From positions 1 to 20,597 of IMG/VR virus record IMGVR_UViG_3300000101_000022: DNA of 20,597 nucleotides; one strand, 5' to 3'. A program made the translations under genes and the position numbers. Below, in pieces: positions 3,582 through 14,100 of the stretch. The stretch is from a virus. The notes below the pieces were generated by a model. It searched no databases and had not been told where the DNA came from. It saw nothing but the letters and a program-made list of their open reading frames with translations. The stretch's first letter is position 1. Every line of letters begins with the position of its first letter.

Positions 3582-3610
3582 ATAATACTATCTTTTGCAC
3601 TTAAGGTCAA
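3582..3610 (-). promoter_or_regulatory. Sigma70-type promoter for gp47-gp46 operon
   Basis: On the minus strand, TTGACC (3610-3605) and TATTAT (3587-3582) are separated by exactly 17 bases. Transcription would start near 3575, giving a leader of about 21 bases that contains the GGAG of gp47. The -35 box includes the TGA stop codon of gp55 (3609-3607), so the promoter is packed into the end of that gene. Each hexamer differs from consensus at one position. Confidence 0.8.
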
Positions 3611-4455: not shown

Positions 4456-4478
4456 ATATTTCTCCAGGTTATTACTCT

Positions 4479-4507
4479 ATTATAAACTACATACTTAATT
4501 TTGTCAA
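4479..4507 (-). promoter_or_regulatory. Perfect consensus sigma70 promoter for gp55
   Basis: On the minus strand, TTGACA (4507-4502) and TATAAT (4484-4479) are separated by exactly 17 bases, a full match to the bacterial sigma70 consensus. Transcription would start near 4472, leaving a leader of about 17 bases that holds the GGAG of gp55. It implies strong early transcription by unmodified host polymerase. Confidence 0.92.
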
Positions 4508-4514
4508 CTAAATA
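4507..4514 (+). promoter_or_regulatory. T4-type late promoter motif before the baseplate operon
   Basis: ACTAAATA on the plus strand resembles the T4 late promoter TATAAATA (6 of 8 bases). The following bases make TAAATACT, an 8-mer repeated exactly upstream of gp6 (11125-11132). Transcription would start about 4520, right at the GGAG (4521-4524) of the first baseplate gene, so the leader would be unusually short. It shares base 4507 with the -35 box of the divergent gp55 promoter. Confidence 0.65.
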
Positions 4515-4530
4515 CTTGTAGGAGATTGAA

Positions 4531-5382
4531 ATGAATTTAAAAAAGATAGTCCAATCCAATGTTAGCAACTTTCAAGAGTCTGTTGAAAATACTGTCAAGT
4601 CCACTGCAACTAATTTTGCAAACTCGGCACTCGAAAACGTATTAGGTGGCGGTGCCGCCGGTATTTTAAAAAGTCTTTTAAAAGGTCCTAGCTCGATACC
4701 ACCAACAGGTGAAAAAACACAGGCAACGGATGGCGCCAAGACTAACGACTGGCGTGTACGTTTAAGTATTCCTCCAAATATGGTTGACGGTAATGAAATG
4801 TTTAAACCTCTTATTGAGACCAATGGACTAGTATTTCCATATACTCCTACTATATTAGTACAGCATACGGCCAATTATGACGCAATGCATCCTACACATA
4901 GTAATTATCCTTTCCCTCAGTATCAGAACAGCCAAATTGAAGATATCGTAATTACAGGTGACTTTTTTGTAGAAAATGCTAAAGATGCGCAATATTGGGT
5001 AGCGATGACACACTTTTTACGTAGTGTAACAAAAATGGACTACGGTTTAGGACAGAATTCCGGTGCTCCGCCACCATTAATATTTTTAAATGGATACGGA
5101 GACTTTGTATTTCCAAATGTTCCGGTTGTTGTTAGAAACTTTACGTTTGATTTGCCTGCAGATGTTGACTACATCAAGACACAAGCAAGTGGTGAAATAT
5201 CAACAGGTCCAACTACTGGAGATCCAAAAGGTAAAGCAGGCTTTGTACCAACACAATCTCAAGTATCAATAACAGTTGCTCCTGTTTACTCAAGAGCAAA
5301 AACTTCACAGTTTAATTTAGACAAATTTGTAAAAGGTGACTACCTTGGCACTAATGGTAACAACGGCGGAGGGTTTATCTAA
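4531..5382 (+). CDS. Baseplate tail tube cap protein (gp48/gp54 type)
   Basis: A 283-residue structural protein in the place where marine T4-like phages carry the tail-tube cap annotated gp48. It joins the tail tube to the baseplate hub. An N-terminal helical stretch (about 1-50, Ala/Gly-rich at 38-45) is followed by a tube-like fold: NDWRVRLSIPP (72-82), YTPTILVQHTANYD (104-117), IEDIVITGDFFV (136-147), YWVAMTHFLRSVTKM (155-169) and NGYGDFVFPNVPVVV (187-201). The pattern of two beta sheets with a central helix fits the gp19/gp48/gp54 tube family, but direct similarity to T4 gp48 or gp54 is weak, so I leave out a symbol. GGAG lies 6 bases before ATG. The tail (NNGGGFI) encodes the ribosome binding site of the next gene, which overlaps by one base. 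Confidence 0.75.
   Translation: MNLKKIVQSNVSNFQESVENTVKSTATNFANSALENVLGGGAAGILKSLLKGPSSIPPTGEKTQATDGAKTNDWRVRLSIPPNMVDGNEMFKPLIETNGLVFPYTPTILVQHTANYDAMHPTHSNYPFPQYQNSQIEDIVITGDFFVENAKDAQYWVAMTHFLRSVTKMDYGLGQNSGAPPPLIFLNGYGDFVFPNVPVVVRNFTFDLPADVDYIKTQASGEISTGPTTGDPKGKAGFVPTQSQVSITVAPVYSRAKTSQFNLDKFVKGDYLGTNGNNGGGFI
5368..5373 (+). promoter_or_regulatory. Ribosome binding site for gp53 inside the preceding gene
   Basis: GGAGGG ends 8 bases before the gp53 ATG at 5382. It is formed by the two Gly codons in the GGF end of the upstream protein. Confidence 0.75.
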
Positions 5383-5684
5383 TGGCACGTTACAGTGAAA
5401 TGAGCCCTTGGGGTAAAACACGAGTAGTAAACAAAGACTATTTGAATGTATTAGAAATTAGACCGGTACCTAAGTCAGACGATGATGTATTATATGAAAT
5501 ACAGCCGCAGTTTACACATAGACCAGATCTATTAGCGTATTCTGTATACGGCAGTTCAAAATTATGGTGGGTGTTTGCACAAAGAAACATGGACGTACTA
5601 AAAGATCCAGTATATGATTTAGTTGCTGGTGCAAAAATTTACTTACCAAGAGCAGATTCATTACAAAAGTACTTAGGTTACTAG
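5382..5684 (+). CDS. 53: gp53, baseplate wedge subunit
   Basis: A 100-residue protein corresponding to the conserved part of the T4 baseplate wedge protein gp53 (196 residues in T4). The diagnostic block is EIQPQFTHRPDLLAYSVYGSS (39-59) followed by KLWWVFAQRNMD (60-71), DPVYDL (75-80) and AGAKIYLPR (82-90). This LysM-like ending is typical of the family. It is much shorter than T4 gp53, as in other marine T4-like phages, so only the core wedge-joining domain is kept. Its start overlaps the preceding stop as TAATG, with a strong internal ribosome binding site, suggesting reinitiation. It stops 3 bases before the next gene. In T4, gp53 joins neighbouring wedges around the hub. Confidence 0.88.
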   Translation: MARYSEMSPWGKTRVVNKDYLNVLEIRPVPKSDDDVLYEIQPQFTHRPDLLAYSVYGSSKLWWVFAQRNMDVLKDPVYDLVAGAKIYLPRADSLQKYLGY

Positions 5685-11122: not shown

Positions 11123-11130
11123 AATAAATA
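11123..11130 (+). promoter_or_regulatory. Late promoter motif upstream of gp6 (proximal)
   Basis: AATAAATA matches the T4 late consensus TATAAATA at 7 of 8 bases and continues as CT, so that TAAATACT equals the motif before the first baseplate gene. Initiation would fall near 11136, leaving a 20-base leader that holds the AAAGGAAG ribosome binding site (11142-11149) of gp6. This 59-base gap is the largest on the plus strand, which suits a promoter. Confidence 0.7.
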
Positions 11131-11155: not shown

Positions 11156-14100
11156 ATGTCAACAACCGACAGACAAAATAGACTATTACTAGCTGAAGAT
11201 TGGAAGCGAGTATATCAGTCTTTTAGAAATGCAGATTTCCAAAGTTACGACTTTGATAACCTGCGCAGAACAATGATAAATTACCTCCGTCAGAACTATC
11301 CGGAGGATTTTAACGACTACATCGAATCAAGTGAATACTTGGCATTGATTGACCTTATTGCTTTCTTAGGTCAAAACATGTCTTTCCGTGTTGACCTTAA
11401 TGCAAGAGAAAATTTCTTAGAACTAGCAGAACGTAGAGAGTCGGTACTACGTTTAGCTCGTTTACTATCTTACAATCCAAAACGTAACCAATCAGCAAAC
11501 GGACTGCTAAAATTTGAAACAATTAGTTCTACAGAAGAATTGTATGATTCAAATGGTACTAACTTATCCGGACAAACAGTTATTTGGAATGATGTTTCAA
11601 ATCAAGACTGGTATGAGCAATTTATTAAAGTAATGAATTCTGCACTACCTGCAAACAGTGTGTTTGGTCGTCCTGTAAAAACTGATACTGTTAATGGTAT
11701 TAGTGTTGAGCAGTACAGAGTTAATGGTGTAAACGTAGATATTCCAATATTTGGATTTAGTAAAAACGTTGATGGTAAATCAACACAGTTTGAAATTACA
11801 AGTACTAATGTTGAAAGTGGAAATATTGTAGAAGAGTCTCCACTACCAGGCAACAATTTTGCATTCCTTTACAGAGACGACGGTCAAGGTGCTGGATCAA
11901 ATAATACAGGCTTCTTTGCACACTTTAGACAAGGACGTTTAGATCAAGGTAACTTCTCAATAACAACTCCAAGTTCAAACCAAGTTGTTGCAATTGATGC
12001 TGTAGACGTTAATAATACAGATGTTTGGTTGTACAAATTAGATGACATTGGTAATGAAAATGAATTATGGAGCAAAGTTGATGCTGTAGAAGGTAACAAC
12101 ATTGTTTATAACAGTTTAAGTAAAAATATTAGAAACATTTATTCAGTACTAACTAGAGTTGAAGATAGAATTAGTTTAATATTCTCAGATGGTACATTTG
12201 GTGCATTGCCAAAAGGTACATTTAAAGTTTACTACCGTGTAAGTGATAATAGAACATTTGTTGTAAGTCCATCAGAGCTTATAAACATTACAATTACTAT
12301 TCCTTACAGAAGTAAATTAGGAACATCAGAAAACCTTACAATAGGCTTAGAGCTAAAATATCCTGTTGAAAATTCAAGTACTTCAGAAACTAATGCAAGT
12401 ATCAAAGCAAATGCTCCTGCAACATACTATACACAAAATAGAATGGTTACAGGCGAAGACTACAACGTTGCTCCACTAGGAGTAAGTCAAGAAATTATTA
12501 AAGTTAAGAGTGTAAACAGAACAGCAAGTGGTATTAGTAGATATTATGATTTACTTGATGCTACTGGCAAATATAGTAAAACTAATTTATATGGTAAAGA
12601 CGGTATACTTTATACACAAAACTTAACTAGCAAAGAAGTATTTTCTTTTGCAACAAAAACAGACATTGAAGGTATTATTAAGAATCAAATTGAAGTTATT
12701 CTTAAGAACTATAAAATTAAAAACTTTTATTACTCACAGTTTGCAAAAATAATTGTAGAAGAATTAGGTGCAAGATGGAATCAAGTTTCAACAGCAACTA
12801 ATTTAACAACAGGTTACTTAACAGATATTGATAATACAAAATTAAGAGTAGGAACATTTACAGGCTCTACGTTACAATACCTTGAACCAGGTAGTATGAT
12901 AAAGTTTGTAGCACCAACAGGGTATCATTTTATGCCTGATGGATCTATAATGGCAGGCGCCGCAGATCATCCAGGTGCAACTACTTACAAATGGACAAAA
13001 ATTATAAGTGTTAATGGCCCAGGTGTTGATAACACTAATGACGGTTCAGGTCCAATAGCATTAAATGATGTTATTCCAGGACCAATTAACAACGATTTAT
13101 CAACTGCTCCTATTATACAAGAAATTAAACCTGTGTTTACTACAGCAATTGAAAATCAAATTAAAACTCAAATTATTGATCAAGTGTTTACTTATAAAAC
13201 GTTTGGTTTAAGATTTGATTTTAAATCATCAACATGGCGTGTTATAGTAGAAGACGATCTTGATATTTTAAATGCGTTTACTACAGGTAAAACAGGTGAC
13301 ATAACAGGACAAAACTTAGACAGTAGTTGGTTATTGTTATTCCAAACAGACGGAGAAACATATACAATTACATATCGTGGACAGCGTTATGTGTTTGAAA
13401 GCGATAAAGAAATTAGATTCTATTACGATAAGTCAGATAAAGTATATGATCCATTAACTAACGAAGTTGTAAAAGATAAAATTAGTTTAATGAGTATTAA
13501 CACACAGCCAACTAGTAACGGATATGCACTTACTCCGTTTACAGTTCCTTTTAATTGGGAAATTGTAAATGAGTATAGAGATAAAGAAGGCTATGTAGAT
13601 AGTAAAAAGATTGAAGTTGGATTTTATGACAGCGACGATGATGGCGTTGTAGATGATCCAGAAATTTTTGATAAGTTTATTACAACATCATCCACAGGTA
13701 AATTTATATACCAAAAACAATATACTACAACTGATGCTGTAGAAGACTTTAGATATGTAGATGCTGTTGATGAAAAAATTACAGCAGTAGCAACAGAAAC
13801 AGTTATTACTGATACTGGTATTGAAAGTTATGCAACAGGCACAGTTTTTTATATCATAGATAAAAATATTTTTAAAGTTTACAATACAACAACTGAAAAG
13901 TTAGAGTTAACAGTAAACTTTAGAGCTTACACAGGTAGAGATGGAATTATATTCCAATATGAGCATTCAGCAGACGAAAGCAACAGAATAGATCCAAGTA
14001 GCTCTAACATTATTGACACTTATGTATTAACAAGATCGTATGACACGTCTTATAGACAATATGTAGCAGGCGCTCTAGCAACTAAACCGTTGCCGCCAAG

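Follow-up and report, generated by a model that had tools for sequence, protein, structure and literature searches.

Can a phage late sigma factor turn down its own gene by acting at a promoter that is joined to the one from which it is made? This question is raised by an intergenic gap of 75 bases in a 20,597-nucleotide stretch of viral DNA (hereafter, the window), which belongs to a virus record of 52.8 kb. The gap separates the start of gp55 (4455) from that of a virion gene (4531). Leftward from it run gp55, gp47, and gp46; rightward, the virion protein gene is followed by gp53 and then by more baseplate genes (Table 1).

Genes of the locus

A gp55-family sigma factor is encoded at the left of the gap, as indicated both by its PHROG match and by the match of its family profile to T4 gp55 in PDB 7d7c (7d7c_F, E 6.8e-11). 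In this protein an N-terminal region of about 145 amino acids, predicted mostly with high confidence, precedes the stretch corresponding to sigma domain 2. The fold search of the gp55 model against the PDB gave nothing significant (best E 0.7), and among its weak matches are some to sigma factors or to domain 2 of such factors. To the right, the product of 4531–5382 is a homologue of a PA5oct protein (E 3e-33, 34% identical) whose annotation as a virion structural protein has mass-spectrometry support, and gp53 is 49% identical to its PA5oct counterpart over 76 amino acids. By megablast, the window matched no cultured phage, and a Vibrio phage query returned zero viral contigs.

Table 1. Genes and predicted control elements at the gp55 locus, in window coordinates.
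Feature	Position	Strand	Remarks
Separate sigma70-type promoter for gp47, TTGACC-17-TATTAT	3582..3610	-	Downstream of gp55
gp55, late sigma factor, 282 aa	3607..4455	-	PHROG 12791, E 2e-75
Predicted gp55 mRNA leader	4456..4472	-	Start near 4472, placed 7 bases past the -10 box
-10 box TATAAT	4479..4484	-	Invariant in 52 non-redundant relatives; the selection pattern required ATTATA
-35 box TTGACA	4502..4507	-	Plus-strand core GTCAA unchanged across relatives, with A or T as the sixth base
Late promoter box ACTAAATA (predicted)	4507..4514	+	-13 to -6
Shared base	4508	both	Minus: G just upstream of -35; plus: C at late -12
Predicted late mRNA leader, 11 bases	4520..4530	+	Starts with AGGAG ribosome site
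Virion structural protein gene, at the head of the rightward late operon	4531..5382	+	PHROG 12050
gp53, baseplate wedge	5382..5684	+	PHROG 7145

Early promoter of gp55

On the minus strand, 23 bases upstream of gp55, TTGACA (4507..4502) and TATAAT (4484..4479) are separated by a 17-base spacer, and they agree with the sigma70 consensus at 12 of 12 positions. No other site within the window does so; when the window was simulated as a first-order Markov chain, 0.05 perfect sites were expected by chance, and at least one was found in 5.2% of the runs. The arrangement TTGACA-17 bp-TATAAT ahead of the gene keeps its spacing in relatives, and a GGAG ribosome site can be read in the predicted leader. 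A consensus early promoter of the host type is supported for gp55. A dyad around AGTTAA..TCAACT, which had been seen by eye, was dropped because its left half varies among relatives. Elsewhere, at G000:C1 ~49062–49160, upstream of an ORF on the minus strand (48379–49062), an early TTGACA-17-TATAAT holds a CTAAATA of the same strand in its spacer, possibly forming a dual early/late promoter.

Late promoter of the virion genes

On the plus strand, ACTAAATA is found at 4507–4514, 16 bases upstream of the virion-protein gene. Within the window this box is indistinguishable from chance, with two occurrences of CTAAATA against 7.5 expected, and the count was discarded as support since the motif is not enriched; judged by comparison with the sequences of relatives, the box is real. 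In eight long related records, ATAAATA is enriched upstream of genes above every other 7-mer (61 occurrences versus 2.6 expected) and often lies 16–30 bases ahead of the start codon; this genome-wide enrichment reveals a late-motif system of the T4 type. The form CTAAATA, beginning at -12, is the late consensus of Aeh1 (PMC1524935; PMC2988020). The box ACTAAATA falls within what is expected of a TATAAATA-like box or the Aeh1 CTAAATA and is conserved in the window clade, and ATAAATA boxes stand ahead of genes genome-wide, the functions of these genes being only partly assigned; the gene downstream of ACTAAATA is the one homologous to the PA5oct virion protein. These comparisons support ACTAAATA as a putative gp55-type late promoter for virion genes, with a late +1 at 4520 when the T4 numbering, in which the box lies at -13 to -6, is applied (PMC2988020).

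A second late promoter of the window is suggested at 11124–11130, where ATAAATA lies 25 bases ahead of the 1184-aa gene that begins at 11156. In related records, ATAAATA is also found on each strand between other divergent genes, at G003:C1 69134–69213, G008:C1 15893–15960, and G007:C1 10702–10780, possibly a divergent late/late arrangement.

Conservation of the contact

The -35 and late boxes overlap or abut in all 72 distinct relatives of the window clade (gp55 at least 73% identical) that have a readable site, with the late box reading CTAAATA in 70 of them and ATAAATA in two, and lying 11–31 bases ahead of the start codon of the divergent gene. Gene calling by script was simple throughout, and the loci form a set of metagenomic fragments that contains redundancy. 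In 13 of the 14 long records, GTCAACTAAATA is present exactly once, always at gp55, and the fourteenth carries GTCAATAAATA instead; GTCAAATAAATA and TGCAATAAATA are other versions in which the contact is kept. When eight records were searched for the composite of a late box with opposite -35 and -10 boxes, it occurred before a gene start only at gp55. In an alignment of 52 non-redundant relatives, selected with a pattern in which most of these letters are fixed while C4508 and the order GTC are free, the 12-mer and the -10 core are invariant while most sites between and outside them vary, and the four-fold degenerate sites of gp55 have a mean diversity of 0.53 and a minimum of 0.11. The pattern itself is matched by 63 of the 64 distinct relatives at 73% gp55 identity or above, and the remaining one also has the 12-mer. 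Strong purifying selection on both promoters is supported by these alignments.

The base shared by the two promoters

The first-pass annotation had described a perfect sigma70 promoter driving gp55 leftward, a late-type motif pointing rightward, and one base common to the late motif and the -35 box. The early promoter was borne out with its coordinates (4507..4479) correct, the late motif was found in its place and is conserved, and the count of one shared base holds for the bare hexamer (A4507). When the preferred G or C ahead of TTGAC is counted, two bases are shared, 4507–4508. Among the 23 other early promoters of this kind (TTGAC, spacing of 16–18, TATAAT-like; reversed controls gave 1) in the same eight records, whose G+C content is about 35%, 22 have the G or C.

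At late position -12, C is present in 70 of the 72 members of the window clade, and A in 102 of the 113 relatives that belong to classes without a called overlap. The overlap, together with the G/C preference of the early promoter, forces the C at this position. The overlap thus carries a visible cost: the favored base stays with the early promoter, and the late promoter has to make do with a C, as in Aeh1. Two loci of the window clade (L016 and L043) have lost one base; in them the late box reads ATAAATA, and the early promoter is without its G/C.

Divergence and spacing in the wider clade

Across the wider clade, gp55 is divergent from its neighbor in 239 of the 240 evaluable loci, and a late box is present in the loci of 202 of 206 distinct proteins. 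In the cultured jumbo phages Phosso, PA5oct, Atu_ph07, RaK2, Vibrio 2.275.O, and CBB, gp55 is divergent from its neighbor and an NTAAATA box points away from it in all six, and gp47/gp46 follow gp55 in five. The spacing of the motifs is -1 to 0 bp in the window clade and -1 to 75 bp in the wider clade. In the RaK2/CBB clade, which has a different -35 class, the sites are 2–4 bp apart according to one caller and up to 6 bp according to another, while the spacing is 35 bp in most PA5oct-like loci and ~48 bp in a further group. The overlap is not required, since in sister clades the pair is still divergent although 15–75 bp separate its motifs.

The footprint of a sigma70 polymerase extends to -55, and that of the late complex to about -40, and the two would overlap at a distance of 47 bp. 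Both sites were called in 162 loci, 143 of which are closer than this; the number rises to 156 with a clamp addition of 13 bp, which, like the contact at -39, is a T4 value (PMC2988020). The gp45 Pfam model was silent in 14 partial records, in which the controls were likewise silent, and with gp45 unmatched the longer footprint that the clamp gives in T4 may be inapplicable here. The AsiA Pfam model was also silent in 14 partial records, again together with its controls, and neither silence is read as absence.

Some of the loci have peculiarities of their own. Of the 34 PA5oct-like loci (L153–L197), 28 have the gp55 -35 and the late box 35 bp apart, and the gap contains conserved blocks, TTTC-N3-ATAAAA-N8-GTTTAT...TG, before ATAAATA, possibly a further regulatory element or an extended late promoter. 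No sigma70 promoter was confidently called upstream of gp55 in L218, L222, L229, L235, L254, and L268, which have in common GTGACCACAAACAGGTCTGTT, with the dyad GACC..GGTC, and on the late side GTGCCTATAAATATAGTTAAAGTATAC or a near version of it; here gp55 may be under another regulator. Although GTCAACTAAATA is present in Atu_ph07 (L122) letter for letter, a clear -10 at the proper distance is missing, and for this reason the phage was left out as a tight member. In the same phage, a cytidyltransferase gene (1839–2393) lies between the late box and the phrog_12050 virion gene, so the late promoter would now drive the cytidyltransferase gene first.

A proposed early/late switch and its alternatives

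We consider it rather probable that the 75-base gap is a two-way early/late switch, in which the two complexes are mutually exclusive and gp55 damps its own synthesis. Early on, host sigma70 polymerase on TTGACA/TATAAT would make gp55 leftward, with some read-through into gp47/46, and in starting near 4472 it would cover the late start at 4520. Later, gp55-bound polymerase would open ACTAAATA and begin rightward near 4520, and this complex would lie over the gp55 promoter from its -35 through the spacer and probably onto its -10. With rising gp55, the virion operon would open and gp55 synthesis would fall. In T4, gp33 cross-links at -39 and -36/-35 (PMC2988020); the equivalent positions in the window, 4481 and 4484/4485, fall at the -10 box of gp55. 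Because of these contacts, and of the sigma70 polymerase lying over 4520, the complexes should exclude each other. Mutual exclusion of the early and late polymerases would be the most likely mechanism, and shut-off of gp55 by its own product the result expected from it. As the late box has C rather than A at -12, the late polymerase may prevail weakly or with a delay, and because gp47/46 have their own sigma70 promoter (3610..3582), whose counterpart is present in seven of the eight long records, the shut-off of gp55 need not silence them. The feedback switch suggested by the first-pass annotation is supported in part, by the two promoter sequences, their overlap, the selection on them, and a geometry that favors exclusion; given the sister gaps of 15–75 bp, divergence instead of overlap may be what matters. 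A broader reading, which we put forward tentatively and with more doubt than confidence, is that repression of its own gene by the gp55 holoenzyme, through a target promoter fused to the early promoter, is a general early-to-late switch of a large jumbo-type clade, with a spacing tuned in each clade.

The main rival is compaction without function, whereby independent promoters with no regulatory role have been squeezed together and stay so because an insertion at a single junction bond is rare. Coding density in the eight records (94–98%, about 96%, by a simple ORF caller) and the near-minimal leaders of the window are in keeping with it. The junction length changed only twice on the gp55 tree, versus 30 and 34 changes for the two leaders, but this constancy was rejected as proof of selection because, for a junction of about one bond, only ~1.4 changes are expected, and a fixed length therefore has little power against compaction. 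We nevertheless regard compaction as unlikely, since leaders in the same clade hold 10–20 spare bases while the sites remain in contact, and since the non-consensus C at late -12 persists in 70 of 72 although one inserted base would remove the cost. Moreover, relatives can afford gaps of 35–48 bp, and RaK2/CBB show near-contact despite a different -35 class.

Quite improbable, in our view, is a coupling in which negative supercoils from leftward early transcription would help to open the AT-rich late box and so activate the late side: basal late transcription of T4 is much lower on a relaxed template (PMC2988020) and divergent promoters are near-universal in the clade, but the predicted starts, ~48 bp apart, are too close for both polymerases at once. 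We give still less credit to the idea that CTAAATA serves the gp55 promoter as an AT-rich upstream element and is no promoter itself. It does lie directly upstream of the -35 box, and the motif alone is not above chance within the window; yet the 11–31 bases that separate it from the divergent start codon are like those of other late boxes, the NTAAATA box stays with the virion gene and not with the -35 where the promoters are apart, and CTAAATA has its precedent in the Aeh1 consensus.

Significance and comparison with known systems

A two-way switch at gp55 would bear on the passage from early to late expression, and on how the late sigma factor is limited, in marine jumbo-type phages. The 12-base overlap predicts a simple switch and brings two promoters into measurable conflict over a single base (C4508), and the divergent gp55/late virion operon is a conserved landmark by which this group can be found and read in metagenomes.

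The late promoters of T4 and Aeh1 are alike in having a box at -13 to -6, a gp55-family sigma factor, and virion genes downstream, with CTAAATA as the Aeh1 form. Here, however, an early sigma70 promoter on the opposite strand shares the box, and gp55 is longer, with an extra N-terminal region. In the cyanophages P-SSM4 and S-RIM8, the gene order gp55-gp47-gp46 is the same, but gp55 is not divergent, its upstream neighbor on the same strand being the uvsW region. In CBB/GAP32, ATAAATA precedes structural genes, early promoters are RpoD-like, and gp55 diverges from structural genes; the promoters were predicted singly, and the back-to-back arrangement and its conservation were not found in the parts of that report consulted (PMC5259590). 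These phages differ from the window in their -35 class and in a gap of 3–4 bp. By analogy, the phi29 promoters A2c/A2b and A3 also place early and late promoters in one region, with the early ones off while the late one is on (PMC3100819); there, the regulators p4 and p6 act with the host sigma, while in the window the role of switch would fall to the incoming sigma factor itself. A narrow literature search found no description of an overlap between the early promoter of gp55 and a late promoter. The T4-type late promoter and the divergent early/late pair are both known things, and the overlap at gp55 is a variant of them.
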